Assembly: GCF_008831285.2 (NCBI RefSeq) | Contig: NC_045147.1 | Coordinates: 10,853,427-10,917,426 of the forward strand | DNA: 64,000 bases | Direction: 5' to 3' | Source: Nymphaea colorata | Lineage: Eukaryota > Streptophyta > Magnoliopsida > Nymphaeales > Nymphaeaceae | Shown: positions 6,637 to 38,299 of the stretch, one piece after another | Layout: each line of letters begins with the position of its first letter | Numbering within the stretch: the stretch's first letter is position 1 | Program-made: the position numbers and the translations under genes | The notes under the pieces: model-generated | What the model was told of the DNA's origin: nothing | The model's database searches: none | What the model saw: the letters and a program-made list of their open reading frames with translations, nothing else

Positions 6637-6645
6637 GAAAAGCTA

Positions 6646-7177: not shown

Positions 7178-7719
7178 GTCGGCGCAGGACACCAGTTGAG
7201 GGCATTCTGATTCCAACACAGCTTTGGCCTCGTCAATGATCTCGAACCCGCGGAGGCTGGGGTTGTTTGCAAGCGAGTCTTTCTCGGCGTCGTCGTTGCC
7301 AGGAGTCGAGTCCAGAAGAACAGAACCATCGCAACCCTGTCATTTTTTAGGCATAATTTCATTTGTTATAAATCACCATCCAAGCAGCTCGCTAGCTGCG
7401 ATTCGTATCAAAAGGTATACACAAAGAAGCAATTCAAAGAAGCTAGGAGGAAGAGAAGTACCCTAACAAAGCAGTCGTGGAAATGCATCCGGATCAATCC
7501 AGCAGCCATTCCTGGATTACGGGCAACGGCCTTCGCTACTGTCCTCTGCACCACTGCCTCTGCTGATGGGCAGCTGTGCCTGTAGTAGCCCACGCTCAGT
7601 GAGCTACCATGATCGGCCACGACGCAAGCAACTATTCCTATGAGCAGGCAGAAAATGAGTGCAGAGCGTCGAAGCAAAGGGAGATGCTCATTATGGCCGA
7701 AGTGCTGGAACGCAGCCAT
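7178..7719 (-). CDS. Class III peroxidase, gene 3 (alpha), truncated by the gap
   Basis: Exon 1 is 7462-7719 (86 codons) and the visible part of exon 2 is 7178-7336 (53 codons), minus strand, with the phase-0 GT-AG intron at the usual site. Residues 1-139 are visible: signal peptide, distal Arg77 and His81, and the first five conserved cysteines, ending in VSCAD at the gap. The proximal-haem half is hidden by the N run and need not be absent from the genome. The visible protein is identical to gene 6 over this part, including the PGNDDAEK variant loop. It diverges from gene 4. Confidence 0.88.
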
Positions 7720-7818
7720 ATTGTCTATGGAAGAAATTGTATATATGAGAACGACTGATTGGTATGTAGGATCTGAGCTGAGGATTTGTGTGTTTCAATT
7801 GGGGGCGTGTGTGGTGGG

Positions 7819-7826
7819 TATTTATA
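7819..7826 (-). promoter_or_regulatory. TATA box of gene 3
   Basis: TATAAATA on the minus strand, 100 bp upstream of the ATG, as in genes 1 and 6. Confidence 0.75.
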
Positions 7827-10800
7827 GAAAGAAGTGGCTAGCTGTTCACTTCTTCCTGGAAGAAGCGATCGTGAGACGGCGGGCAACATGTAGGTTTGAA
7901 GGTTGGAATGTGAAAGGCATATTTCCAAGTGTGGGCATTACTCGCTTTCTCAAGTCCTGTATGCGCTTTGAATCGGTCGACTTGCCCCGGTGTTTTGAAG
8001 ATGAAGGTCAGTGTGCCGATGTACAACCACTACACATGGACACGCTCTTCTCAAATTAAGTTCCTACTTTTAAACATCTTCTCCAAAGTAATCACCGGTA
8101 TTATTTTGGCGACGCATAAAGATTATTGACGACTACTTTGTACATCCCATAAAGGAGGAAAAATGAAAAGTCAGGTCAGCTTTGGCCTTCCCCCAAAAGA
8201 GGCTCGCCCATACATGTACACGTGCAAGTTTGACTTGAATATCTGCTAGATAAGTTCAATTGTGTCCGCCTAATAATCGATCAATTTCTTTCACCTAAGT
8301 ACGTGCAAAAAACACAAACAATTCTCCTTTTTGTCGTAGAGGATGTATTGTAACTAATGACAAACCAATGAAAATCTCGTTATCGATTTGATTTTTATGA
8401 GTTTTTTATTTTTATGAATACTACTTGTCTGAACTATTATAGTATAAATGATAAATATGAGGCACTTTTAGTTGATGGGTGTACTGCTTTTTACCTATGT
8501 TTCTAAAATAACTATGAAATCTGACGCAAAAAAAAAGATGAGGGACTTTTGGGCCTTTCAAAGTATCTCAATTCTCTCTCCCTGCCCAAGCGGTTAATGA
8601 TGAATATGGGATTGAGCTATAAATCAAGTCCAAATTGGCTTTTGGTATTGAACCATTTAGAATGTGGCTCTGAAGCAAGAATAGAAATTCAGACGGACTT
8701 TTATATTTATATCTGAATTTGAATCCAAATCCAATCGAATGTCATTTCTTAAATTTGAATCCAATTTGATTTCTTAATTGGATATTAAATTTTATTACAT
8801 ATCAATTTTTTTCAGACTAATTGGATATATTTAAACTTACCTGAAATTGACTAGACCATGTCTTCCAATAACGACCGTTGATTTAATTTCCTTGAAAATC
8901 TTTTGTGGTTGCAACTTTGCCTTCGCACCCAGCATCTAAAAACATATCATAGGGCCGTCCTTGTCCTTTAGACCCATAGATTAAGATTTTTGATATAATC
9001 GCTTTGGATCCAAACAACGAGGAAAAAGAAAAGTCAAGTCAGCTTTGGCCATTACCCAAAAGAAGTGCGCCTATACATGCATTCATGCAAACTGCCCTTA
9101 CACCGCTTAAAATCAATTCATTTTTTAAATGTGCCAACAAAGTTTGAATCGGAATCTACGAACTGGAGTGGAATCAAGAAATTTGAATTAGTTTGTTGTG
9201 CTTGGTCAACCAAACCATGAAGGCCCCAGTATGATTGAACAAACACGTAAGTAACAAAAGCTGATATTAGAGAATTTCTATCCTTATCGGAGGACTAGAA
9301 GGAGTATTTTATCATATCGTCTACCAAGAGAGCCGAAGTCAGCACGATTTTCCATTCCATATTTCCCTAGTAACAATAAGCTTAGTTTTGGTTTGCCTTT
9401 GTCCTCTCCTTTCATTTTGTAGTACGCAGAGTTGACGTTCTGAAAGCTCAAAACATAGGTTGGTCACCTACTCTTAAAAGCAAATTTGCTTCTAAATCCA
9501 GCCTTCTCTTTTTGGACATCAGATCAATATAGTTGAGTCCACGGGAGCAACAAAAGTATTACCAATAAAAAGGATTGGCTACCAATTAGAAATACCATTG
9601 CATTAACATAAACCTATGCTCAAGAATCTTCATGTCCCTCACTGAACTCTTTTACTTGGCCTTAATGACCTTCAGGTATAGGCAGAGTTGCAAGCGCCAT
9701 TCGGTACATCCAACATACATATGCCAAATGAAAGAAAGGGACATTTTCAAAATTGTTGAAAAAGAAATATCCTTTTGAGTCTTTTTACGTTTTTTTCTAT
9801 TTCCACTAAAAGTTTCCCTTTTCTATCTAAATGGGAGCATTTTTGTCAACAACAACAAAACCAGCTTCAGTTGAGGTATGTTGTTGTTAATAAAAACGAA
9901 TAAATAAGTATCATAAATACAAAAGACTGAATCTTGTATATACTTTTTCAAAGTATTTAGCAATAGGGCAGGTTATCCAGCTGGCCTGGCCCAATAAGAA
10001 GTTAGGCTTGGGCGGAGCTCCATTAGGATTCTTGGGCCCAGCCGACAGCCCATAAGGGCCGCAACTGCAGTCCCAGCTAAGCTTCTTATTGGGACAAGTG
10101 GATTCACAACGAACGGATGAGATCATTCACTAAGACAAAATATTTGATCGGTTTAAATGGAATTAAGCTACAAAATAATATACTGAGATGGAGTTGCATG
10201 TACAGCTTGTGTGTACCTAACAAATAAGCACTAAAAAAAAGGGTTGGGGTATTTTTTTTATATAGATAATCACATTTTATATAGATAAACACATTTTTTA
10301 ATTTTGTTTTCTTCCTTTTAAAAATATTTTTATTTATCAAAGATATTTTGGTTATTACATATCAGTGTACACATAACCAGTTTGGCATGAAACTCTCTTT
10401 CTTTCTCTAAGAAAGGGTCAACTCAATAATAGTGCATGCTACCATTTATGGTGATTGTAAAAACAATGACTACAGAAATTAAATTAATGACCAAGCTTTT
10501 ACCAGCCAATCAATTCAACCAGATATGCTGCTACCCATAAGAAGACAAAAGCCAAAAGAAGTTTGACTTAAATTATTGTGTTCGGGTTAATCAATTATGG
10601 AGGCCCTCAACCTAGTCTACTTTTTGATGGAACAAAGTTGTAAGCAACAAATTAAAGCTAATGTTTAGAGAATTTCCCACAATAAGCTTCATTCATGAGC
10701 ACACTTCCAACAGCAAATTAATATCTTCCATCAGTTGCTTTCTACCATTGCCAAATCTGTCTTTCTTTTAATCTGGACATCAGAACGTGTTGATCAATCA

Positions 10801-11395
10801 TGAGTACATCCTTCTAACACCACTCAAGGAATTAAAATTACCAACATACAGGCTTGTTGGCTACCAAATAGAATTATATAACACCCCACACCTATGCTCA
10901 AGAATCTCTCTCTCTCTCTCTCTCTCTCTCCCTCTCTCTCAACACTTTTATGAATTCTCAAACCGATCGCCAAGTTTTCCTTTGCACCCAAAAAGGTTAA
11001 CTAGTTAATGTACTCTACACGCTTGCAGTTGCTAGATGCAAAGGGGAGCATGATATAAAAAATGCTAGAAGGGCAAGCTCTTGCTTTTGCGAATATATAA
11101 AATTTAAAAATATTGATCATGTTTACACATAAAATTGTAGGCCATCTGTGTTTAATTTACTATTTAAAGCTACGACTTTTTGGGAAGACTCCGTGTAGTG
11201 GTTGTGTGCATCCCATTGATCTTCAAATAACTGTATCCGTCATACTCACGACTTGTTCAAAGCATTAGACTTCAAAGAATGGCTACTGCCGAGACTTAGA
11301 GAAATAGTATTGTTCACATTAAATCCTTGAAAAGGACAGATTGGCCCTGTCACGGCCGCTTCTTCTAAGAACTGATCGCCGGCCATCTCTTCATC
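7827..11395. promoter_or_regulatory. Divergent spacer of unit B
   Basis: There are 3,803 bp between the starts of genes 3 and 4. It is almost identical to spacer A, with three extra bases near homopolymers and the tract at 10.2-10.9 kb. It matches spacer C base for base in length when inverted. It has the same internal repeats and a (CT)n tract at 10905-10940. No supported gene. Confidence 0.6.
10905..10940. repeat. (CT)n microsatellite in spacer B
   Basis: CT dinucleotide tract equivalent to 4711-4746. Confidence 0.85.
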
Positions 11396-11403
11396 TATAA
11401 ATA
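11396..11403 (+). promoter_or_regulatory. TATA box of gene 4
   Basis: TATAAATA 120 bp upstream of the ATG, identical in context to gene 2. Confidence 0.75.
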
Positions 11404-11522
11404 CCCACCATCTACGCCCCCATTTGACACACACAACTCCGTAGCTCATATCCACTATTCTGCGAGCACCTGCTACTTACCAATTAGCCTTTCTCGTACA
11501 TACCGTTTCTTCCATAGACAAT

Positions 11523-12688
11523 ATGGCTACCTACCAGCACTTCTGCCAATGCAATCTCTCTTTGCTTCGAAGCTTGGCACTCATTTTCTGCCTGCTCATA
11601 GGAATAGTTGCTGGCGTCGAGGCCGATCATGGTAGCTCACTGAGCGTCGGCTACTACAGGCACAGCTGCCCATCAGCAGAGGTAGTGGTGCAGAGGATAG
11701 TAGCAAAGGCCGTTGCCCGCAATCCAGGAATGGCTGCTGGATTGATCCGGATGCATTTCCACGACTGCTTTGTTAGGGTACTAGGCACTTACTTCTCTTC
11801 CTCCTAGCTTCTTTGAATTGCATCTTTGGGTATACATTTTGATACGAATCGCAGCTAGTGAGCTGCTTTGCTGGTGATTTATAACAAATGAAGATTATTA
11901 CTAAAAAATGACAGGGTTGCGATGGTTCTGTTCTCCTCGACTCGACTACTGGGAACAAGGCTGAGAAAGACTCGCTTGCAAACAACCCCAGCCAACGCGG
12001 GTTCGAGATCATTGATGAGGCCAAAGCCGTGTTGGAATCAGAATGCCCTCAACTGGTGTCCTGCGCCGACGTTCTTGCCTTTGCTGCTCGGGATGCCGTT
12101 CACATGACCGGCGGTTTCTACTACTCTGTACCTGCCGGACGGCGTGACGGACGTGTATCTAAGGAGTCTGAGGTGCTCGATAACCTGCCCTTACCAACCT
12201 CTAATGTGGACGAACTGGAAGAGAAGTTTGCAGCCAAGGGGCATTCTCTTGAAGACATGGTCACTCTATCTGGTGCACACACCTTGGGTGTGTCTCACTG
12301 CTCATCGTTTTCCGATCGGCTTTATGGCTTCAACAACTCGACCGGTGCTGCCGACCCATCCATGGACCCCAAGTATGTGCGCTACCTGAGGACAAAGTGC
12401 CCGGATCCGGAGTCGTCGTCCCAGGATGCAACGGTGGCTTTGGACCCAGTGACACCAAATAGGCTGGACAACAAGTATTACGTGAACCTCAAGTACCAGC
12501 GAGGGCTGCTCACATCGGACCAAGCACTGACAGAAAGGGCAGACACGGCCAGGATGGTGAACCAAAACGTGAACCAAGGTTCAATGTGGGCTCACAAGTT
12601 CTCTGCAGCGATGGTGCGGATGGGCTCGATAGACGTGTTGACTGGATATGAAGGGGAGATCAGGAAGTATTGTATGGTTGTTAATTAA
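11523..12688 (+). CDS. Class III secretory peroxidase, gene 4 (beta)
   Basis: Exons 11523-11777 and 11915-12688, phase-0 GT-AG intron, 342 aa. The predicted protein is the same as gene 2 in every residue I compared, including NNPSQRGF and the C-terminal IRKYCMVVN. It has a signal peptide, distal Arg76/His80, proximal His207 and eight cysteines. It is the right-hand partner of the divergent unit B. Being indistinguishable from gene 2, it is either a very young duplicate or an assembly duplicate (allelic contig). Confidence 0.94.
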
Positions 12689-12824
12689 GGCCGTAAAAAC
12701 AGGTCCTTGGTGGTTGATTTATTCATTCAATTGGTTTAATTGTTTATAGTTGTTATACGGTGGCCGGAAATGTCAATTCAACTGTTCGTGTGGCCCAACC
12801 TTCCATTCGTTGTAGTTATTATTC

Positions 12825-12830
12825 AATAAA
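12825..12830 (+). terminator. Poly(A) signal AATAAA of gene 4
   Basis: AATAAA 137 bp after the stop codon, in the same 3' UTR context as gene 2. Confidence 0.7.
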
Positions 12831-12839
12831 GAAAAGCTA

Positions 12840-13435
12840 GAACTTGTGCTTATTTGATAGAATATATATTGCTCTCGTTGCTCTCACATTCGTTAGGCAC
12901 ATCAATACCAATAACAACTCACATCATTAAGTAAACAGATTAATAAATATATCTCATTACACAATAAACTGCCACACATTTCATCAGTTGGTATCACCAC
13001 AACATTACAGACCAATCATCATTAAACTGTCACAACACACATATTTGCCAGGACTGGCGAAACTCCGACAAACACATGGACACTCAAAACAATTAATTTC
13101 AATTATCAAGCACATCCTCATGATGCATATCAATAAATATATTTCTTAGCAAAGTACATTTCAGTTCAAAATTAGGATTCATATTCCCACATAAGTGTAG
13201 AAACAGAATTTGGATTGGGAAATCAGATATCTGGAAACTATCAATTGCTGATGGAGGAGCACAAAACTCACAAGCTTTGGTGGGAAATTTGGTAATCGTG
13301 ATCTCTAGTATATGCTAAAAAATGTAGAAATTCTGCTGCAACAAACACATCAAGTATCCAAGAAGACTCCAATACCAGCATAATAAATAAACAACAATGG
13401 TTCTCTGGAAAACACTTTCACTGACGCGAGCATGA
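12840..13435. other. Downstream flank of gene 4
   Basis: No gene. It is repeated behind gene 2 (to the gap) and, inverted, behind gene 5 (31415-32010). Part of it (from about 13235) also has a diverged third relative at 54907-55260. Confidence 0.6.
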
Positions 13436-13606
13436 ATATATAACAGTTAATTTTTTACTGACATTTGCACACTAGGCGTTGATAAAAACTGAATCTTAAC
13501 TTCTTCTTGTAGCACTTGTCGTTGAAGACTTGTTTTCAAAGGCGTTTTCCCTCAAACACCGATGAAAAGCTTCTTCACCGTCAAGTCAACTAAAAGTAAG
13601 CTTTAA
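13436..13606. other. Possible DNA-transposon remnant next to the decayed spacer
   Basis: Contains TTCTTGTAG followed by CAC, reminiscent of CACTA-type ends, plus several ACTGACG/CGTTGATAAAA-like short motifs. The inverted copy is at 31244-31414 and a diverged relative lies inside 54907-55260. The family assignment is a guess. Confidence 0.25.
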
Positions 13607-14221
13607 TGGAGACAGAGAGAGAGAAAGAAAGAGATTCTGAGCATAGATTCGGGTTGTTATGTAATTCTATTTGGTAGCCGACAATTCTGTATGCTAGTAA
13701 GTTTAATTCTTTGGGTGATGTCAGAAGGATGTACTCACGATTGATCAACGCGTTCTGATGTGCAGATTAAAAGAAAGACGGATTTGGCAACGGTAGAAAG
13801 CAAGGGAGGGAAGATTTAATTTGCTTTTGGAAGTATGCTCATGAATGAAGCTTATTGAGGAACTTCTCTAAACATTAGCTTTAATTTGTTGCTTACAAGT
13901 TTCTTTCATAGAAAATTAGACTTGGTTAAGAGCCTCCACGATTGATTGACCGAACACAATATTTTAAGTTAGACTTCTTTTCAGTTTTGTCTTCAAACGC
14001 GTAGCATATCTAGTTGAGCTGATTAGCTGGTAAAAGCTTGGACATTATTTTAACTTCTATGGGCATTGCTCTTTTAATCTCCACAAACAGTGACAAGTAC
14101 TACTATTGAGTTCACCTAAATCCCCAAGCATGCCAAACCTCATGACCAAAAGTAGGAAATGGAGGAACAAGCTTGAGCATGTTTCTAAGTCAAACATTTT
14201 CATTATATTACACTTTGTAGA
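13607..14221 (-). repeat. Decayed peroxidase spacer, segment 1 (left arm)
   Basis: A diverged relative of 33910-34440 (the beta-side spacer upstream of gene 5) in the same orientation. It starts at the GA-rich tract and runs through the GCATAG, GATTGATCAAC and AAGCTTATTG landmarks. No peroxidase coding sequence is attached, so the gene once driven by it has been lost. Confidence 0.75.
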
Positions 14222-14229
14222 TTGAGAGT

Positions 14230-15330
14230 TAAGCCTGGGCACCGGGCCGGGCCGGCACCGAGTACCCGGTACTCCGCCCCACTCGGGCTCGGGTATCTGA
14301 AAATGGCTTAACAGGCTGGTGTTGTCGGGTCTGCTCTGGCCCGGTATTTCAACGGGTCGGGTTTGGGCTTGAAACTGTATACCGTGAGGGCCCAAGAAGC
14401 CCGGTAACTAAAAAAAATATATTTTTTTTATAAGAGGTAAGTTAAGTTAGGGTTTCGTGTTGACTGTTTCAACTTTAACATTGATGGCAACAGGGGAGGG
14501 GACGACAATGGAAATGGTGGTTTTGAATTTTTACCACACTGCCTTTGAATCGTCATGGCTGGGAGACAACAGTAGGAGTGATTTGTAACCACGAATTCCT
14601 TTGTCCTACGGAAGAACCTGAAACTCCAATTTTGCAGCTCCAACAAAATAAGCATAAACCCAATACAGTGAAGACGTTGCTGCCATTGGAACCACCAACG
14701 CCTGCCCACCTCTCTGTATGCCAAACTAGTACGTGACGATAATGGTGGGCTGTTTTCTCCATAAGCGGGTCGCCAAAAGGTGTCTCCTCTCCCTTCCCCA
14801 TCAACTTTGGAAAACCAGCCTTCCACAAATGCAGAGGCTTCCTTCTGCCTCCAATCGCCTTTCAAATCGAGCGCCTTCTTCTTCTGGCCACTGCCACTGC
14901 CACTGCCACGGAGGATGACTACCACCGTCATTGATTTTGACAGACCTCAGTTAGAGAGAGACATTAAGCCCTCGGCTTTCCACTTCACCAAGACTCTCAT
15001 CCTTGGCCTTTCTTAGGAATCCAAAGAGCTTCGTCGACAAGTAATCAGGCTCGAATGAGCCTCGGGCATCAACTCAAGCCGGAGGCCTGATATCTCAAAG
15101 GCCCGCTCGGCCCTGTTAGAAACGACCTGATGGCCTTAACGGGCTTCGATTTTGTCATGTTTTCAGGCCGGTTGGGCATCAACTCAAGCCGGAGGCTTGA
15201 TATCTCAAAGGCCCGCCCGGGCTGGTTAGAAACGACCCGCTGGCCTTAACGGGCTGACCCGATGGCCTTAACGGGCTTCGATTTAGTCATGTTTTTTAGG
15301 CCAAGCCGGCCGGCCTGATGCCCAGCCCTA
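14230..15330. mobile_element. hAT1, copy 1: hAT-like nonautonomous element
   Basis: 1,101 bp. The ends are TAAGCCTGGGCACC and, on the other strand, TAGGGCTGGGCATCAGGCC, imperfect terminal inverted repeats. It is flanked by TTGAGAGT (14222-14229) and TTCAGAGT (15331-15338), a 7/8 target duplication; 8-bp duplications are typical of hAT elements. The subterminal parts are GC-rich with repeated GGCC motifs. The interior carries a gene-like stretch, including an ORF beginning MTTTVIDFDRPQLERDIK at about 14915 (+). There is no transposase. It is inserted in the decayed spacer. Confidence 0.8.
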
Positions 15331-15338
15331 TTCAGAGT

Positions 15339-15800
15339 CAAAATTTATCAATAAATTCACAACTTTTTTGTGGCAGTTCCGATTCTGACCTTGACCCTTT
15401 CTTAGAAAAAGGAAGAAGGAGAGAGAGAGACTTTTATGCTGAACGGGTTATGTGCACACTGGTATGTAATAACCAAAATGCTTTTGATAAAAAAAAGAGA
15501 CTTTTAGAAGGTGGAAAACAAAATTATGAAAATATTAAAAGTCTAAAATGTGTTTATTTATATTAAAAAATCAAGAAAATATCCCAACCTTTCTTTTTGG
15601 TGCATATTTAATGGGTGCACGCACGCTGTACACGCAACTCCATCTCAGTATTATGTGGCTTTTAAGTAATTTATGTGATACATTTTCAAGTCAAACTTGC
15701 ACATATAACCTGTTTTGGGCCTGACCGAAGATGCACCGTCTTTTCCTTCTCCTTTCGATCCAAAGTCGTTTTCAAGAATCTTAACAAGTCTAAATATTGG
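15339..15800 (-). repeat. Decayed peroxidase spacer, segment 2 (left arm)
   Basis: From about 15375 to 15655 it continues the spacer homology (34433-34672), including the CTGGTATGTAATAACCAAAA-like and CAACTCCATCTCAGTATTA landmarks. From about 15680 to 15800 it resembles a different spacer part (around 35760-35870). hAT1 separates it from segment 1. Confidence 0.65.
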
Positions 15801-16021
15801 TGAGGAGTATTATTTTGTGTAGACCTATTACTGTACATTGATCATAAGCGAATGGTGTTATAATCTTATTTGACAAACAATGCTTCAAATTCTGCCAACC
15901 ACAAGACGATCAGCTATTGATTTGTGGGGAACTTAATCATGATTTCTATATGTGAGCCGATGAGGCTAAATTCAGTAAGATATGATGACACTAATGCTTC
16001 TTGAGCAGCCACACGTGGTCC
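15801..16021. other. Unassigned DNA left of copia-1
   Basis: AT-rich, without ORFs. I recognise nothing here beyond the flank of the copia-1 5' LTR. Confidence 0.4.
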
Positions 16022-16435
16022 TGTTGGATAGTGGCCTAGAAACCTATCCTTCCCTTCGTAACTGCAAGACCGTTGCATTTACGAGATTATAACAGAAAAT
16101 TCATTTCAAAAATTAATTTCAAAATCAATGTTACCATTTGCATTCTTATCATATTTTTCTTGTAGATACGAGATTATAACAAGAAATTCAGTTCAAAAAT
16201 TTATTTGAAAATCAATGTTACCATTTACATTCTTAACATATTTTTCCCTGTCATAACCGTAGCTGGGATTTCGGAAATCCTGTGAGGCAGATTATTAAAC
16301 CCCAGCTTCTGTTCATCTAATGGTTGTTGATTAGTCAACCTGAGAAGCAAACCTACAAGCCAATTTATCTCTTGCTTCTTCCCTTTCGCCACAGGTGCTG
16401 CCTCTTGACGCAGCTGTTGCATTACTCAGGTACCA
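16022..16435 (+). repeat. copia-1 5' LTR
   Basis: 414 bp, TG...CA ends. It contains an internal tandem duplication of about 85 bp (GAGATTATAACA...TTACCATTT blocks) not found in the 3' LTR. Confidence 0.85.
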
Positions 16436-16436
16436 T

Positions 16437-16449
16437 TAGTATCAGAGCC
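16437..16449 (+). promoter_or_regulatory. copia-1 primer-binding site
   Basis: TAGTATCAGAGCC directly after the LTR, one base off the usual TGGTATCAGAGC that pairs with the 3' end of initiator tRNA-Met. Confidence 0.75.
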
Positions 16450-16561
16450 ACGGTTCTTCCAATTAAGTCTGTTCGACCTCTTTGGTGCCTGTGCTGTCTA
16501 CACTATCTACACATCCAAGTATATCAGTAGTTATCATTCTGCTAATCTGGATAGCGTCTTC

Positions 16562-16865
16562 TAGGGCTGAACAACGAGCCGAGTAACTCGAACTCGGCTC
16601 GACATCGAGTTTGGGCCAGCTTTTCTACTCAACGAGCCAACCTCGAGTTGATCGTTCAGCTCGTTTATTTTATCGAGCCGAGTTCGAGTTCGTTTAACGA
16701 AGCTCGCTCAACCCAACTCGGCTCGTTAGGTCGACGAACAGATATTTATTGTTTTCCTCATTCAGTCAACTTCATTTTTGGTCTTTTTTTCTCTCTCTTC
16801 ACTCTCTTCCTTCTTTTGGTGATTGGTGGAACTGAAGGCAATCTGCAGCAATGGTACTCTTCTCT

Positions 16866-16911
<46 letters not shown>

Positions 16912-17717: not shown

Positions 17718-17725
17718 GCTTCTTC

Positions 17726-17880
17726 CGAATGTATGCAGCATGCCAGAATAAACAGTTCGTGCTAGATTAAAAATCTATCTCGAACGTGTGAAGCATGCTA
17801 GAATAAACAGTTCATCGTAGATGAAAAAATCTATCTCGAATTTGTGAAAGCATGCTAGTATAAACAGCTTGCAGTTACGA
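17726..17880. repeat. Short tandem repeats of about 55-58 bp in the copia-1 leader
   Basis: Three imperfect repeats, each with GCATGC(T/C)AG(A/T)ATAAACAG and AATCTATCTCGAA. They are also present in the right arm (about 25935-26075). Confidence 0.7.
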
Positions 17881-23937: not shown

Positions 23938-24024
23938 CATGGTTAATGACCAAAATTCCACTTTTGTCTTTCAAAAAGTTTCTTTTTTCTGTTTTAAAGG
24001 GAGCAATTTTGGTGATTAACCATG
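23938..24024. mobile_element. 87-bp hairpin, MITE-like
   Basis: Terminal inverted repeats of 20 bp with one mismatch (CATGGTTAATGACCAAAATT against CATGGTTAATCACCAAAATT) around an AT-rich loop. It sits exactly at the junction between the decayed spacer and the inverted copia-1 fragment. It could be a MITE or a structure involved in the rearrangement. Confidence 0.55.
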
Positions 24025-26088: not shown

Positions 26089-26096
26089 AAGACGCT

Positions 26097-27060: not shown

Positions 27061-27089
27061 ACTATCTCTATCTCTCTTCCTTTCTCTAA

Positions 27090-29567
27090 GGGCCAGTTTG
27101 ATGGCAGGGAAGAATTTAACATGGTAAATTTTTCTGGAAAAATTTAAAGGATGAAATTTCTCCCTCTTCCAATCTGAGTCCTTGTTTGATGCACAAGAAG
27201 AATTTAACCTGGTGAATTTAACCATGTTTGATGCACAGAGTAGTTTTTTACAGGATAAAATTAACCCTGTATGATGCATATGGTAGAAAAATTGAGAGAC
27301 TTTTTCAGAACAGTTAGTAGTTGTTTTTTTCCTTCTCCTCCCCAATTTGATAATCAGGTTGTACACATCTTATATATCAGAAACTATGTGTCCCCAGTCT
27401 ACCAACATTACAAGGAGGGTATGTGCCCCCGTGGGCAGCAGCAAATCAACTGATGAGCCATAAATAGTACTAAAAAAATTGAGAAGATTAAAAATTCACA
27501 AGAGAAAAAGAATGAGGGAGTACTCAAGGCATTCTATCTAGCCAACAAGCAAAATCAGATCAATCATATTTACAATTTAACTAAAAAATCCAAACTGGTT
27601 TAATGCTTCAACTGTCTAACATTAATTAGCAATCTGTTTTCAACTTTTCTTTTTCATTTTACTATGTACTGGTCTCCCCTTATCTTAGATTTCTAGCTCT
27701 GGCTGCTGCAAAAGCCACGAACAACTGAATATTTGTTCTTTCTGAATTTCCTTACCTGCTACTTATCAAACACAGTTTAAGCATATGATGTTGCTAACCA
27801 ATAATTAGATATTCGTTTGAGAATCTTTATATCCATAAAGAGAATAGACCAACCAAGCATAACATGTTCTCCCAAACAGCCACAGATTATAGAACAAGTT
27901 AGCTAACAGGAGATTAAATGGATGCAACTACAGAAAGGATTAAGCTTATGTAGCCCACAGAAAGGATTCAACAATTATATGCCTTTAGGCAAAATCACCT
28001 CCCAGAATTGGTAGTCTTGAAGAATATCACTCAAATGCAGCAGGAAAGCAAAGATGAAAATCTCATTCACCTCACATGGAATTAAGTAAACCACACATTT
28101 TTTTTTCTATTGTTACTTTCATCTCCTACCTATATATTGGTTCTCAAAATTGTGGCCATCAACATCTGCATTTGAGCATCTCTGCATAATCATTTACTCA
28201 TCTGTGTTTACATTTCTTCCATTTACTTCTCAGCTTCACGTTTATTTTGTTCTTGTCAATTTTTTTTCTATTGTTGGAACTTGGAAGTGCCCAACGTTTT
28301 CATGAGAACTAGCATCACCAAAAAGAAAGAAAAAAGGACCTGAGACATACGTCTGAGATTATGGTTCTCGATACATATACATGATATTTCTTCAAATATG
28401 AGCCTCCTTACAGGCTTCAACAATAGAATCACAAGAACATTCATTTGACGACTACTGAGAAAATTGAAAATCAGTTTCTCATCATACTTGGTTCTTTCCC
28501 TATAACTAAATATTTGGTATAGGGAAATAATACAGTCAACAAGATACACATTTCAACAAGATTGGAAAAGGAATTATACTCTAAAATAAACACCGATGTT
28601 GGAACGATGTTACGACCCCGTCCACCATACTGCATCCCCAAACCTATCTAGCCTACTCCCTAACATAGTCAAATAAACAGCAAACACTATGTCAATGCAA
28701 ACAGAGAATACAGCAAAAGGATTCCAGACCAGAAAACAAGAAGGTGCACGTCGATCTTTTCGTATAATAAAAAACAAGACAAGAAAGAGAGAAGAGCCTA
28801 CTCGAGAGCTTCGCGACTTTGTTACGGGGTGAGCTTTGCCGAGAAGCCGCTAGCGGCAGTTGAGTAGCTGTATATAAGAGCAGCCATCACGGCCTCTTCA
28901 CTGCGTTCAACTGTGTTCATTCGTGGAAAAAGAACATAAAGAATAGAAAAAGAAAAGCATCAGAAAGGGAAAAACACCGATCAAAAAATGAGAAGAGGAG
29001 GAAACGCAGCAAGAGAAGGAGGAAGCACAGCAAAGAGGAAAGTTGCAGCAACAGAGGAGGAAACGTAGGAAGTGAAGAGGAGACGCAGCAACAGTTCAGA
29101 GACCTGTGCAGTGAAGGTGAGGAAGAAAACCGCGACAGAGGAGGAGACATTGCAACAACAGAAGGACACGCAGACTTGTGGAACGAGAGAGGAGCAGAAG
29201 ACCGTCGATTGCGAGGGAGGAGGAGAAGCAGACCGGTGGAGTGCAGCGAGTGAGAGGCCCTTCCGTCGAGTGCGAGGGAGAAGGAGACGCAGACCTGTGG
29301 AGTGCAGCGAGAGAGGAGCCCTTCCTGCGAGGGTGTAGCGAGAGAGAAGAGGGGAAAAGAGGTAACGAATCTCAAAAATGTCTCCACCAAAAAGTCGGTC
29401 CTGTGAGGACCGACTTTTTCAAGGGCAAAATTTCACCCGATGACAAAGTAAATTTCGGGTGAAATTTCGCTGTGTTTGTTGCGAAGAAGGGTGAACGGGT
29501 GAAATTTCACCCTTCCGTACGATTTTCAACAGATGCACAGGATTTTTCCTATGCATCAAACGGGCCC
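27090..29567. mobile_element. PIF/Harbinger-like nonautonomous element
   Basis: 2,478 bp. Imperfect terminal inverted repeats: GGGCCAGTTTGATGGCAGGG at the left and, on the other strand, GGGCCCGTTTGATGCATAGG at the right. A 3-bp TAA target duplication (27087-27089 and 29568-29570) is characteristic of PIF/Harbinger. Joining the flanks recreates the uninterrupted sequence seen in the left arm near 15400. No transposase ORF is recognisable. The right part (28.9-29.35 kb) is purine-rich with low-complexity ORFs. It is absent from the left arm, so it inserted after the inverted duplication. Confidence 0.88.
29389..29419. repeat. Perfect 13-bp hairpin in the Harbinger-like element
   Basis: AAAAAGTCGGTCC, a 5-base loop, then GGACCGACTTTTT. 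It is followed by two further inverted motifs built on GGGTGAAATTT (about 29427-29510), so the right subterminal region could fold into a series of hairpins. Confidence 0.8.
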
Positions 29568-29641
29568 TAAGAAAAGGTCAAGGTCAGAATCCGAACTGCC
29601 ACAAAAAAGTTGTGAATTTATTGATAAATTCTGACTATGAA

Positions 29642-30601
29642 TAGGGCTGGGCATCAGGCCGGGCCGGCCCGGCCTGAAAAACATGACTAAATCGAAGCCC
29701 GTTAAGGCCATCGGGTCAGCCCGTTAAGGCCATCTGGTTGTTTCTAACCGGGCCGGGCAGACCTTTGACATATCAGGCCTCGGGCTTGAGTTGATGCCTG
29801 AGGCCCGGCCCAGCCTGATTACTTGTCGACGAAGCTCTTGGAATTCCTAATTAAGGCCAAGGATCAGAGTCTTGGTGAAGTGGAAAGCCGAGGGCTTAAT
29901 GTCTCTCTCTAACTGAGGTCTGTCAAAATCAATGACGGTGGTAGTCATCCTCCGCGGCAGTGGCCGGAAGAAGAAGGCGCTCGATTTGAAAGACGATTGG
30001 AGGCCGAAGGAAGCCTGGTTTTCCAAAGTTGATGGGGATGGGAGAGGACACACCTTATGGCGACCCACTTACGGAGAAAACTTCCCACCATTATCGTCGC
30101 GTACTAGTTTGGCATACAGAGAGGTGGAGGCGTTGGTGGTTCCAATGGCAGCAACGTCTTCACTGTATTGGGTTTATGCTTATTTTGTTGGAGCTGCAAA
30201 ATTCGAGTTTCAGGTTCTTCTGTAGGACAAAGGAATTTGTGGTTACAAATCACTCCTACTTTTGTCTCCGAGCCATGACGATTCGAAGGCAGTGTGGTAA
30301 AAATTCAAAACCACCATTGCCATTGTCGTCGCCTCCCCTGTTGCCATCAATGTTAAAGTTGAAACAGTCAAGACGAAACCCTAACTTAACTTACCTCTTT
30401 TGAAAAAAAAATATTTTTTTTAGTTACCGGGCTTCTCGGGCCCTCACGGTATACAGTTTCAAGCCCAAACCCGACCCGTTGAAATACCTGGCCAGAGTGG
30501 GCCCGACAACACCAGCCCGTTAAGCCATTTTCTGATACCCGAGCCCGAGTCGGGTGGGGTACCGGGTACTCGGTGCTGGCCCGGCCCGGTGCCCAGGCTT
30601 A
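29642..30601. mobile_element. hAT1, copy 2 (inverted, right arm)
   Basis: 960 bp, inverted counterpart of 14230-15330. The ends are TAGGGCTGGGCATCAGGCC and TAAGCCTGGGCACCGGGCC (other strand). The flanks ACTATGAA and ACTCTCAA match at 6/8. The captured stretch with MTTTVIDFDRPQLERDIK is kept on the minus strand (about 29847-29950). Confidence 0.8.
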
Positions 30602-31243
30602 ACTCTCAATCTACAAAGTGTAATACAATGAAAATGTTTGACTTAGAAACATGCTCAAGCTTGTTCCTCCATTTCCTACTTTTGGTCCTGATGTTTGGGC
30701 TGCTTCGGGATTTAGGTGAACTTATGGTTACTTCATCCAACTCAATAGTAGTACTTGCCACCGTTTGTGGAGATTGAAAGAGCAATGCCCATAGAAGTTA
30801 AAATAATGACCAAGCTTTTTCCAGCCAATCAGCTCAACTAGATATGCTACGCGTTTGAAGACAAAACTGAAAAGAAGTTTAACTTAAAATATTGTGTTCG
30901 GTCAATCAATCGTGGAGGCTCTTAACCAAGTCTAATTTTTTATGAAAGAAACTTGTAAGCAACAAATTAAAGCTAATGTTTAGAGAATTTCCACAATAAG
31001 CTTCATTCATGAGCATACTTCCAAAAGCAAATTAAATCTTCCCTCCCTTGCTTTCTACCGTGGCCAAATCCGTCGTTCTTTTAATCTGCACATCAGAACG
31101 CGTTGATCAATCGTGAGTACATCCTTCTGACATCACCGAAAGAATTAAACTTACTAACTTACAGAATTGGCGGCTACCAAATAGAATTACATAACAACCC
31201 GAATCTATGCTCAGAATCTCTTTCTTTCTCTCTCTCTGTCTCC
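30602..31243 (+). repeat. Decayed peroxidase spacer (right arm)
   Basis: Inverted copy of about 13607-14229, itself a diverged relative of the functional spacers. No coding sequence remains. Confidence 0.75.
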
Positions 31244-32019
31244 ATGAAAGCTTACTTTTAGTTGACTTGACGGTGAAGAAGCTTTTCATCGGTGTTTGAG
31301 GGAAAACGCCTTTGAAAACAAGTCTTCAACGACAAGTGCTACAAGAAGAAGTTAAGATTCAGTTTTTATCAACGCCTAGTGTGCAAACGTCAGTAAAAAT
31401 TAACTGTTATATATTCATGCTCGCGTCAGTGAAAGTGTTTTCCAGAGAACCATTGTTGTTTATTTATTATGCTGGTATTGGAGTCTTCTTGGATACTTGA
31501 TGTGTTTGTTGCAGCAGAATTTCTACATTTTTTAGCATATACTAGAGACCACGAGTACCAAATTTCCCACCAAAGCTTGTGAGTTTTGTGCTCCTCCATC
31601 AGCAATTGATAGTTTCCAGATATCTGATTTCCCAATCCAAATTCTGTTTCTACATTTATGTGGGAATATGAATCCTAATTTCGAACTGAAATGTACTTTG
31701 CTAAGAAATATATTTATTGATATGCTTCATGAGGATGTGCTTGATAATTGATATTAATTGTTTTGAGTGTCCATGTGTTTGTCGGAGTTTCGCCAGTCCT
31801 GGCAAATATGTGTATTGTGACAGTTTAATGATGATTGGTCTGTAATGTTGTTGTGATACCAACTGATGAAATGTGTGGCAGTTTATTGTGTAATGAGACA
31901 TATTTATTAATCTGTTTAGTTAATGATGTGAGTTGTTATTGGTATTGATGTGCCTAACGAATGTGAGAGCAACGAGAGCAATATATAGTCTATCAAATAA
32001 GCACAAGTTTTAGCTTTTC
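31244..32019. other. Downstream flank of gene 5
   Basis: No gene. 31244-31414 is the inverted copy of the possible transposon remnant at 13436-13606. 31415-32010 is the nearly identical inverted copy of the flank behind gene 4. Confidence 0.6.
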
Positions 32020-32025
32020 TTTATT
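32020..32025 (-). terminator. Poly(A) signal AATAAA of gene 5
   Basis: AATAAA on the minus strand in the conserved 3' UTR, 137 bp after the stop codon. Confidence 0.7.
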
Positions 32026-32161
32026 GAATAATAACTACAACGAATGGAAGGTTGGGCCACACGAACAGTTGAATTGACATTTCCGGCCACCGTATAACAA
32101 CTATAAACAATTAAACCAATTGAATGAATAAATCAACCGCCAAGGACCTGTTTTTACGGCC

Positions 32162-33327
32162 TTAATTAACAACCATACAAGACTTCCTGATCTCCCCTTC
32201 ATATCCAGTCAACACGTCTATCGAGCCCATCCGCACCATCGCTGCAGAGAACTTGTGAGCCCACATTGAACCTTGGTTCACGTTTTGGTTCACCATCCTG
32301 GCCGTGTCTGCCCTTTCTGTCAGTGCTTGGTCCGATGTGAGCAGCCCTCGCTGGTACTTGAGGTTCACGTAATACTTGTTGTCCAGCCTATTTGGTGTCA
32401 CTGGGTCCAAAGCCACCGTTGCATCCTGGGACGACGACTCCGGATCCGGGCACTTTGTCCTCAGGTAGCGCACATACTTGGGGTCCATGGATGGGTCGGC
32501 AGCACCGGTCGAGTTGTTGAAGCCATAAAGCCGATCGGAAAACGATGAGCAGTGAGACACACCCAAGGTGTGTGCACCAGATAGAGTGACCATGTCTTCA
32601 AGAGAATGCCCCTTGGCTGCAAACTTCTCTTCCAGTTCGTCCACATTAGAGGTTGGTAAGGGCAGGTTATCGAGCACCTCAGACTCCTTAGATACACGTC
32701 CGTCACGCCGTCCGGCAGGTACAGAGTAGTAGAAACCGCCGGTCATGTGAACGGCATCCCGAGCAGCAAAGGCAAGAACGTCGGCGCAGGACACCAGTTG
32801 AGGGCATTCTGATTCCAACACGGCTTTGGCCTCATCAATGATCTCGAACCCGCGGAGGCTGGGGTTGTTTGCAAGCGAGTCTTTCTCAGCCTTGTTCCCA
32901 GTAGTCGAGTCGAGGAGAACAGAACCATCGCAACCCTGTCATTTTTTAGTAATAATCTTCATTTGTTATAAATCACCAGCAAAGCAGCTCACTAGCTGCG
33001 ATTCGTATCAAAATGTATACCCAAAGATGCAATTCAAAGAAGCTAGGAGGAAGAGAAGTAAGTGCCTAGTACCCTAACAAAGCAGTCGTGGAAATGCATC
33101 CGGATCAATCCAGCAGCCATTCCTGGATTGCGGGCAACGGCCTTTGCTACTATCCTCTGCACCACTACCTCTGCTGATGGGCAGCTGTGCCTGTAGTAGC
33201 CGACGCTCAGTGAGCTACCATGATCGGCCTCGACGCCAGCAACTATTCCTATGAGCAGGCAGAAAATGAGTGCCAAGCTTCGAAGCAAAGAGAGATTGCA
33301 TTGGCAGAAGTGCTGGTAGGTAGCCAT
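32162..33327 (-). CDS. Class III secretory peroxidase, gene 5 (beta)
   Basis: Minus strand, exons 33073-33327 and 32162-32935, 137-bp phase-0 intron, 342 aa. Inverted counterpart of gene 4. It has a signal peptide, distal Arg76/His80, proximal His207, eight cysteines and an NST sequon at 226. It differs from genes 2 and 4 by NNPSLRGF instead of NNPSQRGF and by IRKSC instead of IRKYC, the states seen in the alpha copies. It diverges from gene 6 through spacer C. Confidence 0.95.
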
Positions 33328-33446
33328 ATTGTCTATGGAAGAAACGGTATGTACGAGAAAGGCTAATTGGTAAGTAGCAGGTGCTCGCAGAATAGTGGAT
33401 ATGAGCTACGGAGTTGTGTGTGTCAAATGGGGGCGTAGATGGTGGG

Positions 33447-33454
33447 TATTTATA
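33447..33454 (-). promoter_or_regulatory. TATA box of gene 5
   Basis: TATAAATA on the minus strand, 120 bp upstream of the ATG, as in genes 2 and 4. Confidence 0.75.
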
Positions 33455-36400
33455 GATGAAGAGATGGCCGGCGATCAGTTCTTAGAAGAAGCGGCCGTGA
33501 CAGGGCCAATCTGTCCTTTTCAAGGATTTAATGTGAACAATACTATTTCTCTAAGTCTCGGCAGTAGCCATTCTTTGAAGTCTAATGCTTTGAACAAGTC
33601 GTGAGTATGACGGATACAGTTATTTGAAGATCAATGGGATGCACACAACCACTACACGGAGTCTTCCCAAAAAGTCGTAGCTTTAAATAGTAAATTAAAC
33701 ACAGATGGCCTACAATTTTATGTGTAAACATGATCAATATTTTTAAATTTTATATATTCGCAAAAGCAAGAGCTTGCCCTTCTAGCATTTTTTATATCAT
33801 GCTCCCCTTTGCATCTAGCAACTGCAAGCGTGTAGAGTACATTAACTAGTTAACCTTTTTGGGTGCAAAGGAAAACTTGGCGATCGGTTTGAGAATTCAT
33901 AAAAGTGTTGAGAGAGAGGGAGAGAGAGAGAGAGAGAGAGAGAGATTCTTGAGCATAGGTGTGGGGTGTTATATAATTCTATTTGGTAGCCAACAAGCCT
34001 GTATGTTGGTAATTTTAATTCCTTGAGTGGTGTTAGAAGGATGTACTCATGATTGATCAACACGTTCTGATGTCCAGATTAAAAGAAAGACAGATTTGGC
34101 AATGGTAGAAAGCAACTGATGGAAGATATTAATTTGCTGTTGGAAGTGTGCTCATGAATGAAGCTTATTGTGGGAAATTCTCTAAACATTAGCTTTAATT
34201 TGTTGCTTACAACTTTGTTCCATCAAAAAGTAGACTAGGTTGAGGGCCTCCATAATTGATTAACCCGAACACAATAATTTAAGTCAAACTTCTTTTGGCT
34301 TTTGTCTTCTTATGGGTAGCAGCATATCTGGTTGAATTGATTGGCTGGTAAAAGCTTGGTCATTAATTTAATTTCTGTAGTCATTGTTTTTACAATCACC
34401 ATAAATGGTAGCATGCACTATTATTGAGTTGACCCTTTCTTAGAGAAAGAAAGAGAGTTTCATGCCAAACTGGTTATGTGTACACTGATATGTAATAACC
34501 AAAATATCTTTGATAAATAAAAATATTTTTAAAAGGAAGAAAACAAAATTAAAAAATGTGTTTATCTATATAAAATGTGATTATCTATATAAAAAAAATA
34601 CCCCAACCCTTTTTTTTAGTGCTTATTTGTTAGGTACACACAAGCTGTACATGCAACTCCATCTCAGTATATTATTTTGTAGCTTAATTCCATTTAAACC
34701 GATCAAATATTTTGTCTTAGTGAATGATCTCATCCGTTCGTTGTGAATCCACTTGTCCCAATAAGAAGCTTAGCTGGGACTGCAGTTGCGGCCCTTATGG
34801 GCTGTCGGCTGGGCCCAAGAATCCTAATGGAGCTCCGCCCAAGCCTAACTTCTTATTGGGCCAGGCCAGCTGGATAACCTGCCCTATTGCTAAATACTTT
34901 GAAAAAGTATATACAAGATTCAGTCTTTTGTATTTATGATACTTATTTATTCGTTTTTATTAACAACAACATACCTCAACTGAAGCTGGTTTTGTTGTTG
35001 TTGACAAAAATGCTCCCATTTAGATAGAAAAGGGAAACTTTTAGTGGAAATAGAAAAAAACGTAAAAAGACTCAAAAGGATATTTCTTTTTCAACAATTT
35101 TGAAAATGTCCCTTTCTTTCATTTGGCATATGTATGTTGGATGTACCGAATGGCGCTTGCAACTCTGCCTATACCTGAAGGTCATTAAGGCCAAGTAAAA
35201 GAGTTCAGTGAGGGACATGAAGATTCTTGAGCATAGGTTTATGTTAATGCAATGGTATTTCTAATTGGTAGCCAATCCTTTTTATTGGTAATACTTTTGT
35301 TGCTCCCGTGGACTCAACTATATTGATCTGATGTCCAAAAAGAGAAGGCTGGATTTAGAAGCAAATTTGCTTTTAAGAGTAGGTGACCAACCTATGTTTT
35401 GAGCTTTCAGAACGTCAACTCTGCGTACTACAAAATGAAAGGAGAGGACAAAGGCAAACCAAAACTAAGCTTATTGTTACTAGGGAAATATGGAATGGAA
35501 AATCGTGCTGACTTCGGCTCTCTTGGTAGACGATATGATAAAATACTCCTTCTAGTCCTCCGATAAGGATAGAAATTCTCTAATATCAGCTTTTGTTACT
35601 TACGTGTTTGTTCAATCATACTGGGGCCTTCATGGTTTGGTTGACCAAGCACAACAAACTAATTCAAATTTCTTGATTCCACTCCAGTTCGTAGATTCCG
35701 ATTCAAACTTTGTTGGCACATTTAAAAAATGAATTGATTTTAAGCGGTGTAAGGGCAGTTTGCATGAATGCATGTATAGGCGCACTTCTTTTGGGTAATG
35801 GCCAAAGCTGACTTGACTTTTCTTTTTCCTCGTTGTTTGGATCCAAAGCGATTATATCAAAAATCTTAATCTATGGGTCTAAAGGACAAGGACGGCCCTA
35901 TGATATGTTTTTAGATGCTGGGTGCGAAGGCAAAGTTGCAACCACAAAAGATTTTCAAGGAAATTAAATCAACGGTCGTTATTGGAAGACATGGTCTAGT
36001 CAATTTCAGGTAAGTTTAAATATATCCAATTAGTCTGAAAAAAATTGATATGTAATAAAATTTAATATCCAATTAAGAAATCAAATTGGATTCAAATTTA
36101 AGAAATGACATTCGATTGGATTTGGATTCAAATTCAGATATAAATATAAAAGTCCGTCTGAATTTCTATTCTTGCTTCAGAGCCACATTCTAAATGGTTC
36201 AATACCAAAAGCCAATTTGGACTTGATTTATAGCTCAATCCCATATTCATCATTAACCGCTTGGGCAGGGAGAGAGAATTGAGATACTTTGAAAGGCCCA
36301 AAAGTCCCTCATCTTTTTTTTTGCGTCAGATTTCATAGTTATTTTAGAAACATAGGTAAAAAGCAGTACACCCATCAACTAAAAGTGCCTCATATTTATC

Positions 36401-37023
36401 ATTTATACTATAATAGTTCAGACAAGTAGTATTCATAAAAATAAAAAACTCATAAAAATCAAATCGATAACGAGATTTTCATTGGTTTGTCATTAGTTAC
36501 AATACATCCTCTACGACAAAAAGGAGAATTGTTTGTGTTTTTTGCACGTACTTAGGTGAAAGAAATTGATCGATTATTAGGCGGACACAATTGAACTTAT
36601 CTAGCAGATATTCAAGTCAAACTTGCACGTGTACATGTATGGGCGAGCCTCTTTTGGGGGAAGGCCAAAGCTGACCTGACTTTTCATTTTTCCTCCTTTA
36701 TGGGATGTACAAAGTAGTCGTCAATAATCTTTATGCGTCGCCAAAATAATACCGGTGATTACTTTGGAGAAGATGTTTAAAAGTAGGAACTTAATTTGAG
36801 AAGAGCGTGTCCATGTGTAGTGGTTGTACATCGGCACACTGACCTTCATCTTCAAAACACCGGGGCAAGTCGACCGATTCAAAGCGCATACAGGACTTGA
36901 GAAAGCGAGTAATGCCCACACTTGGAAATATGCCTTTCACATTCCAACCTTCAAACCTACATGTTGCCCGCCGTCTCACGATCGCTTCTTCCAGGAAGAA
37001 GTGAACAGCTAGCCACTTCTTTC
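33455..37023. promoter_or_regulatory. Divergent spacer of unit C
   Basis: There are 3,803 bp between the starts of genes 5 and 6. It is the inverted copy of spacer B with identical length. It has (GA)n at 33910-33945 and internal repeats near 35770-35830 and 36620-36690. No supported gene. It presumably drives both genes. Confidence 0.6.
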
Positions 37024-37031
37024 TATAAATA
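37024..37031 (+). promoter_or_regulatory. TATA box of gene 6
   Basis: TATAAATA 100 bp upstream of the ATG, as in genes 1 and 3. Confidence 0.75.
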
Positions 37032-37130
37032 CCCACCACACACGCCCCCAATTGAAACACACAAATCCTCAGCTCAGATCCTACATACCAATCAGTCGTT
37101 CTCATATATACAATTTCTTCCATAGACAAT

Positions 37131-38299
37131 ATGGCTGCGTTCCAGCACTTCGGCCATAATGAGCATCTCCCTTTGCTTCGACGCTCTGCACTCATTTTCT
37201 GCCTGCTCATAGGAATAGTTGCTTGCGTCGTGGCCGATCATGGTAGCTCACTGAGCGTGGGCTACTACAGGCACAGCTGCCCATCAGCAGAGGCAGTGGT
37301 GCAGAGGACAGTAGCGAAGGCCGTTGCCCGTAATCCAGGAATGGCTGCTGGATTGATCCGGATGCATTTCCACGACTGCTTTGTTAGGGTACTTCTCTTC
37401 CTCCTAGCTTCTTTGAATTGCTTCTTTGTGTATACCTTTTGATACGAATCGCAGCTAGCGAGCTGCTTGGATGGTGATTTATAACAAATGAAATTATGCC
37501 TAAAAAATGACAGGGTTGCGATGGTTCTGTTCTTCTGGACTCGACTCCTGGCAACGACGACGCCGAGAAAGACTCGCTTGCAAACAACCCCAGCCTCCGC
37601 GGGTTCGAGATCATTGACGAGGCCAAAGCTGTGTTGGAATCAGAATGCCCTCAACTGGTGTCCTGCGCCGACGTTCTTGCCTTTGCTGCTCGGGATGCCG
37701 TCCACATGACCGGTGGTTTCTACTACTCTGTACCTGCCGGACGGCGTGACGGACGTGTATCTAAGGATTCCGAGGTGCTCGAGAACCTTCCCTTACCAAC
37801 CTCTAATGTGGACCAACTGGAAGAGAAGTTCGCTGCCAAGGGGCTTTCGCTTGAAGACATGGTCACTCTATCTGGTGCACACACGTTGGGCGTGTCTCAC
37901 TGTTCATCGTTTTCCGATCGGCTTTACGGCTTCAACAACTCGACCGGTGCTGCCGACCCATCCATGGACCCCAAGTATGTACGCTACCTGAGGACAAAGT
38001 GCCCGGATCCGGAGTCGTCGTCCCAGGATGCGACGGTGGCTTTGGACCCTGTGACACCAAATAGGCTGGACAACAAGTATTACGTGAACCTCAAGTACCA
38101 GCGAGGGCTGCTCACATCGGACCAAGCACTGACAGAAAGGGCAGACACGGCCAGGATGGTGGACCAAAACGTGAACCAAGGTTCAGTGTGGGCTCACAAG
38201 TTCTCTGCAGCAATGGTGCGGATGGGCTCGATAGGGGTCTTGACTGGATCTCAAGGGGAGATCAGGAAGTCTTGTAGGGTTGTTAATTATGGCAGTTAA
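37131..38299 (+). CDS. Class III secretory peroxidase, gene 6 (alpha)
   Basis: Exons 37131-37388 and 37514-38299, with a 125-bp phase-0 GT-AG intron. The product is 347 aa. It has a signal peptide, distal Arg77/His81, proximal His209 and eight cysteines, the last at 340. The loop after the LLDS motif reads TPGNDDAEK, one residue longer than in beta copies. The usual terminal ...RVVN-stop has changed: the stop codon TAA has become TAT and the frame continues for YGS, giving a three-residue C-terminal extension. It is the only complete pure alpha copy in the window and shows what gene 3 should look like beyond the gap. Confidence 0.95.

Follow-up and report, generated by a model that had tools for sequence, protein, structure and literature searches.

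A gene-bearing palindrome within the class III peroxidase array on chromosome 10 of Nymphaea colorata

The closest described counterparts of the locus reported here are the soybean I locus, the palindromes of the willow W chromosome, and the VIM4-VIM2 locus of Arabidopsis Cvi. Our subject is a palindrome with class III peroxidase genes on chromosome 10 of Nymphaea colorata, lying in a window of 64,000 nucleotides (positions 10,853,427-10,917,426 of a 24.86-Mb sequence in a genome of 407.8 Mb). Coordinates are those of the window, negative values lying to its left.

The soybean I locus contains two inverted CHS arms of 10.91 kb with 5.71 kb between them (PMC6710647). This CHS1-3-4 cluster resembles the N. 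colorata palindrome in being a gene-family inverted repeat (~27 kb) with some kilobases between the arms, in its position near genes of the same family, and in spanning assembly gaps in the reference. Its arms are, however, described as identical, recent, and producing small interfering RNAs (siRNAs), whereas those of N. colorata are transposon-rich and, outside a substitution-free core, diverged by 2.7% in transversions. Arabidopsis VIM4-VIM2 (PMC13213937) likewise consists of inverted gene duplicates in a plant, but its intergenic stretch is short, and transcription across the repeat and siRNAs have been shown; in N. colorata, the convergent genes are 19.5 kb apart, and in contrast to both systems, the locus is known from sequence alone. 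The willow palindromes (PMC7023750) share with ours a plant host, an old age by divergence, and one stretch without arm differences (3 kb in willow, at least 4.2 kb here) that is read as conversion, but they are sex-linked, comprise four arms over 200 kb, and had conversion tested with a second species, whereas two arms in one assembly are considered here.

The string "palindrom" is absent from the available text of the N. colorata assembly paper (PMC7015852). No published report of this palindrome was found in searches on plant palindromes, on N. colorata peroxidases, or on inverted or tandem duplication of class III peroxidases; the literature combining class III peroxidases with inverted and tandem duplication gave a match on another family only. 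We know of no sex link of the palindrome. The locus is a clear gene-bearing palindrome from an early-branching flowering plant. Flat transversions record how old the duplication is in relative terms, and this age is separable from one recent conversion tract.

Arms, loop, and peroxidase genes

Self-BLAST aligned 7178-15145 with 37672-29718 in inverted orientation at 98.16% identity (7,988 columns, bit score 13,769). An initial annotation had described a palindrome at 7178..37672 with two opposed units, B and C, and had placed each right-arm position at 44850 minus the left-arm coordinate. This rule is exact from 7178 to at least 13.4 kb, because B and C align over this range without indels; beyond it, the mirror continues with indels to 20388/24036 through the inner pairs 15175-15405/29798-29567, 16740-19046/27067-24755, and 19646-20388/24766-24036, with coordinate sums of 44,973, 43,807, and 44,412, respectively. 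The mirrored arms were confirmed, but the bounds were not: 7178 is the first base after a 100-N gap, and the arm extends left to ~233, mirrored at 38454. In merged form, the left arm comprises 233-7077 plus 13272-20388 (~14.0 kb), the right arm 24036-38454 (14.4 kb), and the whole palindrome ~32 kb. The loop proposed at 20.4-24.0 kb was borne out; within its 3,647 bp lies a copia reverse-transcriptase domain. With contig 1 counted, each arm of ~14 kb bears two genes. The two mirrored peroxidase pairs of the initial annotation are likewise complete only when contig 1 and 37673-38299 are added, gene 1 being cut in both arms within 7178..37672. The features are as follows.

1-7077, plus strand: contig 1 (unit A of the initial annotation), between a 5,000-N stretch and the 100-N gap
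233-977, plus strand: outer continuation of the left arm in contig 1 (self-alignment; mirrored out to 38454)
360-1530, minus strand: peroxidase gene 1 of the left arm, A1 (NcPOD50), two exons, 343-aa frame (gene model and published coordinates)
5329-6494, plus strand: peroxidase gene 2 in contig 1, A2 (NcPOD55), 342 aa, protein identical to B2 (gene model)
7078-7177, no strand: 100-N scaffold gap (run of N)
7178-15145, plus strand: outer, gene-bearing part of the left arm as assembled in contig 2 (self-BLAST)
7178-7719, minus strand: B1, a fragment of gene 1 truncated at the contig edge (residues 1-137)
11523-12688, plus strand: peroxidase gene 2 of the left arm, B2 (NcPOD51), two exons, 342 aa (gene model)
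15175-20388, plus strand: inner, transposon part of the left arm (15175-15405, 16740-19046, and 19646-20388; mirrored pieces)
20389-24035, no strand: loop, 3,647 bp (bounds of the mirrored pieces)
24036-29798, minus strand: inner, transposon part of the right arm, lacking counterparts of left-arm 19047-19645 and ~15435-16735
29718-38454, minus strand: outer, gene-bearing part of the right arm, C (self-BLAST)
32162-33327, minus strand: peroxidase gene 2 of the right arm, C2 (NcPOD48), 342 aa (gene model)
37131-38299, plus strand: peroxidase gene 1 of the right arm, C1 (NcPOD52), 347 aa (gene model)

All five two-exon models (A1, A2, B2, C2, and C1; the cut-off B1 stands outside this count) are open and specify 342-347 aa, and NcPOD50 has an intact two-exon frame of 343 aa compared with the 306 aa annotated. 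The A2/B2 protein, scanned once for both copies, matches PF00141 (E 9.2e-87), and one of its two best solved-structure matches is named Royal Palm Tree Peroxidase. Inspected by eye, its translation contains HFHDC and SGAHTLG, which we take to be the distal and proximal histidine motifs of class III peroxidases, and eight cysteines past the signal region, in agreement with a class III plant peroxidase. Genes 1 and 2 are inverted copies of each other with 6.6% substitutions; they stand head-to-head within each arm, and B2 and C2 stand tail-to-tail across the centre, their stop codons 19.5 kb apart. A segment of the spacer between the genes (9855-10931) occurs again in inverted orientation, with interruptions, at 13608-14116, 15391-15651, and 23548-23904.

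When the peroxidase loci placed in a tree were compared by hand with the published NcPOD coordinates on chromosome 10 (Table 1, PMC11788295), 15 of 15 coincided; the tree excludes four partial loci, i.e. an exon at -74.8 kb, B1, a scrap at 53.5 kb, and a split copy at 110-116 kb. The same source places 29 of the 94 NcPOD genes on chromosome 10 in its text and 28 in its table. The gene-1 copies A1, C1, and NcPOD63 (200-2012, 36647-38893, and -10796 to -8590) look mosaic, since shared variants change partner along the gene, a pattern that suggests exchange among array members.

Overlap of contigs 1 and 2

The assembly was built with PacBio RSII, Canu 1.3, Arrow, Pilon, and Hi-C/Lachesis (PMC7015852; read project PRJNA565347), and the quoted 49.8 Gb in 5.5 million reads correspond to an average read of 9 kb, about the length of the outer arms. 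Positions 1-7077 form a separate 7-kb contig, because runs of N flank them on both sides, namely the 100-N gap and a 5,000-N stretch adjoining the window on the left (-4999..0), which could be a scaffold gap.

Unit A (978-7077) repeats unit B (7178-13271) in an alignment that stops exactly at the end of contig 1 and the start of contig 2. Over 1565-7077 (5.5 kb), A and B show no substitutions and three one-base indels, two within long homopolymers and one AA/AAA, and the other 41 of the 44 difference columns lie within 1020-1564 (26 substitutions and 15 gap columns). The right arm C agrees with B in 44 of 44 such columns. At every position of 1565-7077 that distinguishes the two arms, A has the left-arm allele, and left-specific alleles are present in contig 1 on both sides of the perfect core. 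The 578 bp at the end of contig 2 (B 7178-7755) are identical to the C arm and not to A.

The treatment of A and B as separate units in the initial annotation was not supported. Because their overlap is bounded exactly by both contig edges and has no substitutions over 5.5 kb, we read them as most likely one locus assembled twice through an unmerged contig overlap, with A as the redundant copy. The 578-bp end is probably right-arm sequence attached to the contig, and its identity to C would be expected if right-arm reads had extended the contig through the identical core. NcPOD55 and NcPOD51, which are listed with equal length, mass, isoelectric point, and hydropathy (PMC11788295), are most likely one gene counted twice. 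The gene list would be corrected accordingly; NcPOD50, for its part, is intact and exceeds its annotated length, and both contigs should be merged before the array is analysed for dosage or tandem duplication.

Duplicated overlapping contigs have been described by Kelley and Salzberg (2010, PMC2864568), and the likeness lies in adjacent contig ends that align to both contig edges, as 978-7077/7178-13271 do; a mate-pair test was applied there, whereas our case is argued from the assembled bases only. The cause here is probably the inverted repeat rather than a haplotype difference. When arm positions 7178-13271 were searched against the 408-Mb genome (best 39 of 1,522 candidates), no match above 92% other than the right arm was found except three pieces of 33-35 bases, a lower bound, since B itself and A were left out of the listing; off chromosome 10, where a haplotype copy was sought, the longest match to the arm among those listed in this lower-bound search was 131 bases.

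Arm divergence, gene conversion, and transposons

The arm-to-arm substitution rate is not uniform and ranges from 0 to 13.4%, with the maximum at 19646-20388. The lower extreme is the core:

7756-11950 (mirror 37094-32900), no strand: core with no substitutions relative to the right arm, including the non-coding spacer between genes 1 and 2 (substitution counts)

Against the right arm, 0 of 4,178 positions are substituted in contig 1 and 0 of 4,195 in contig 2. The longest substitution-free run covers 4,816 of 8,080 columns between B and C (578 bp at the contig end included) and 4,235 of 6,823 columns between A and C, lengths reached in 0 of 20,000 permutations in either case. In six segments outside the core, and apart from the intermediate stretch 11951-13600, transversions are homogeneous at 2.3-3.3% (pooled 161 of 6,062, 2.7%; chi-square P = 0.81), and transitions are heterogeneous (P = 6e-17; pooled 4.3%, rising to 10% in 19646-20388). 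Divergence in 11951-13600 is intermediate (17 of 1,649, ~1%), and this zone may record another conversion. Given 2.7% transversions plus 4.3% transitions outside the core, the arms are much more alike within it (0/4,178) than the age of the duplication would lead one to expect. Moreover, the core is mostly non-coding spacer, and gene 1 just outside it is 4.3-5.4% diverged, which is the opposite of the expectation under purifying selection. The profile fits best with one old duplication and one recent arm-to-arm gene conversion with a tract of at least 4.2 kb. The proneness to conversion foreseen in the initial annotation agrees with this signature of a substitution-free core and flat transversions elsewhere. 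A conversion gradient fading toward the loop (identity 98, 90, and 83%) was considered and rejected, because transversions alone are flat and it is the transitions of the transposon part that account for the gradient.

The gene-bearing arms differ by 76 transitions and 84 transversions (ratio 0.90) and show no methylation footprint by this indirect and not strict measure, compared with 182 and 79 (ratio 2.30) in the inner transposon arms (Fisher P = 8e-6, calculated without 15175-15405, which has 10 transitions and 7 transversions). Ratios in four other peroxidase comparisons, two of which use palindrome genes, are 0.73-1.08, and that of a pair of long terminal repeat (LTR) elements elsewhere in the array is 1.87. 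The repeat-derived stretch 13601-15145 has no transition excess (35 to 42); as judged from these counts, the signature is a mark of the copia-rich part and not of every repeat. For the gene-bearing arms, the evidence argues against long-standing small-RNA-directed methylation, and it has no bearing on post-transcriptional silencing.

Two elements lie in or reach into the inner parts of the arms:

16022-23456, plus strand: old copia element, running from the left arm into the loop (LTR-like repeats 16022-16419 and 23130-23456)
27090-29567, no strand: 2.5-kb insertion in the right arm only (GGGCC...GGCCC inverted ends, TTA/TAA target duplication)

The LTR-like repeats of the copia element are 81-83% alike, and its gag and reverse-transcriptase domains lie at 19077-19505 and 21824-22207, respectively. 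Near 15400, the left arm has the intact empty site of the 2.5-kb insertion, which is presumably Harbinger-like by its ends and target motif; the right arm lacks 1.3 kb (~15435-16735) and 0.6 kb (19047-19645) found on the left. A grass origin of the sequence was considered, but no site of CTCCCTCCGT, which we take to be a grass-transposon motif, occurs on either strand in the 324 kb examined, and the species was settled by the match to the published NcPOD coordinates. A fold-back assembly product, against which the initial annotation had called for a check, is not supported, the inner arms being 7-13% diverged with arm-specific insertions and deletions.

The inner left-arm sequence 16740-20388 was searched against the whole genome, and the best 40 of 775 candidates were scored. 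Among the matches listed, the right arm is the only one spanning query bases 1-2307 (16740-19046) in one piece, at 90%; two loci on chromosome 8 match the first part (bases 1-953 at 90% and 291-707 at 88%), a short piece matches bases 815-922, and many copia relatives match from ~base 1683 on, the longer ones at 73-81%. Since the composite of repeats at 16740-19046 is joined nowhere else among these matches, the inner arms appear to descend from one inverted duplication and to share more than a transposon family. Both the copia element and the older inverted spacer copy extend through the left arm and loop, and the left arm with the loop is probably parental, the right arm being a truncated copy.

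History, alternative explanations, and the surrounding array

We consider it probable that the locus arose by a single inverted duplication and one later conversion, and that contig 1 is the left arm assembled twice. A head-to-head peroxidase pair with flanking transposons, inside the chromosome-10 array, would have been copied once in inverted orientation, probably from the left side, which includes the loop, to give the truncated right arm. Both arms would then have diverged at one rate, each gaining its own insertions and deletions, while the silenced transposon part accumulated extra C-to-T changes. More recently, a tract of at least 4.2 kb, which takes in the spacer and the beginning of gene 2, would have been overwritten in a single conversion between the arms. 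The 7-kb contig before the palindrome would be the left arm assembled again and left unmerged where it overlaps the main contig, whose last ~580 bp on that side would probably come from right-arm reads. In function, the locus most likely amounts to no more than additional copies of genes for secreted class III peroxidases.

Several points weigh against this history. Unit A could be a genuine tandem copy of very recent origin or a second haplotype; independence of sites is assumed in the permutations, and the transversion test is too coarse for small age differences; the intermediate divergence of 11951-13600 makes more than one conversion possible; and read correction or consensus, in an assembly from PacBio RSII and Canu, could have made the core identity look more exact than it is. 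In the innermost piece (19646-20388), the right arm is 83% identical, compared with 80-81% for the best copia relatives, and the case is there argued from order and position; the continuity of the copia element across 20388 is argued from domain order and the LTR-like pair. Taken further, the perfect core would be an assembly effect, with truly diverged arms merged by consensus or read correction. The PacBio RSII and Canu 1.3 pipeline and outer arms about as long as an average read favour this explanation, but we think it unlikely, because the same pipeline separated arms that differ by 4-5%, both at 13.6-15.1 kb and beyond the gene-1 end of the core, so that divergence in the core itself must truly be much lower, and because contig 1 has left-specific alleles flanking the core. 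It is distinctly unlikely that A, B, and C are three real copies, with A formed when B was duplicated in tandem very recently, and with C later converting B at its outer end. The confinement of 41 of 44 A/B differences to 1020-1564 would suit such a conversion, which the mosaic array genes make conceivable at 978-1564; yet the alignment ends precisely at both contig edges, the remainder holds just the three one-base indels in two long homopolymers and AA/AAA, and the sole divergent part lies at a contig end and equals C. That the inner pieces are two independent, opposite insertions of the same repeats, leaving a true palindrome of the outer 8 kb only, is an extremely improbable explanation: a dispersed copia family does include the part at 18.4-20.4 kb, and the mirror of the innermost piece is barely closer to it than its relatives are, but the arms share a composite of different repeats, contained in one 2.3-kb piece at 90%, and its border to the outer arm is nearly the same in both, allowing for the arm-specific insertion and deletion.

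The initial annotation had also proposed double-stranded RNA from read-through of an arm, and this gained no support. B2 and C2 are convergent with 19.5 kb, including transposons, between their stop codons, so read-through would meet the transposon part of the arms first, and within the palindrome a methylation-like excess of transitions is found only in the innermost, transposon part. It is accordingly very unlikely that the palindrome is a silencing locus whose read-through hairpin RNA and small RNAs act on the peroxidase array, as the similar plans of the soybean I locus (PMC6710647) and Arabidopsis Cvi VIM4-VIM2 (PMC13213937) might suggest; besides this distance and the contrast between 76:84 and 182:79, five of five modelled reading frames are intact. 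We hold it to be equally unlikely that the locus is a natural silencing and homogenizing hub, in which the spacer and gene 2 are held identical by arm-to-arm conversion and small RNAs derived from rare, long read-through transcripts tune the whole chromosome-10 array. Outside the palindrome, NcPOD58 (plus strand) and NcPOD63 (minus strand), at -13427 to -9052 (~10840000-10844375), are convergent, ~84% alike, and only ~2 kb apart; as a possible source of a read-through hairpin, this pair is a better candidate than the large palindrome.

Two copies of a 6-kb LTR-type element flank the palindrome in opposite orientation (-53553 to -47468 and 95623 to 101643). A much larger palindrome was considered, because these inverted outer matches (-53553..-47468 / 101643..95623, sum 48,090) nearly share its centre, and rejected, because the pair is one element with its own terminal repeats. 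Between -75 kb and 116 kb outside the palindrome, the minus strand carries six of the seven peroxidase loci to the left and the plus strand six of the six to the right (fragments counted), so that the array points outward. Despite this pattern, no older whole-array palindrome is claimed, because the tree does not pair the outer loci in mirror order. To the right of the window, the peroxidase copy at 109858-116007 is split by ~5 kb of DNA and is possibly a pseudogene.

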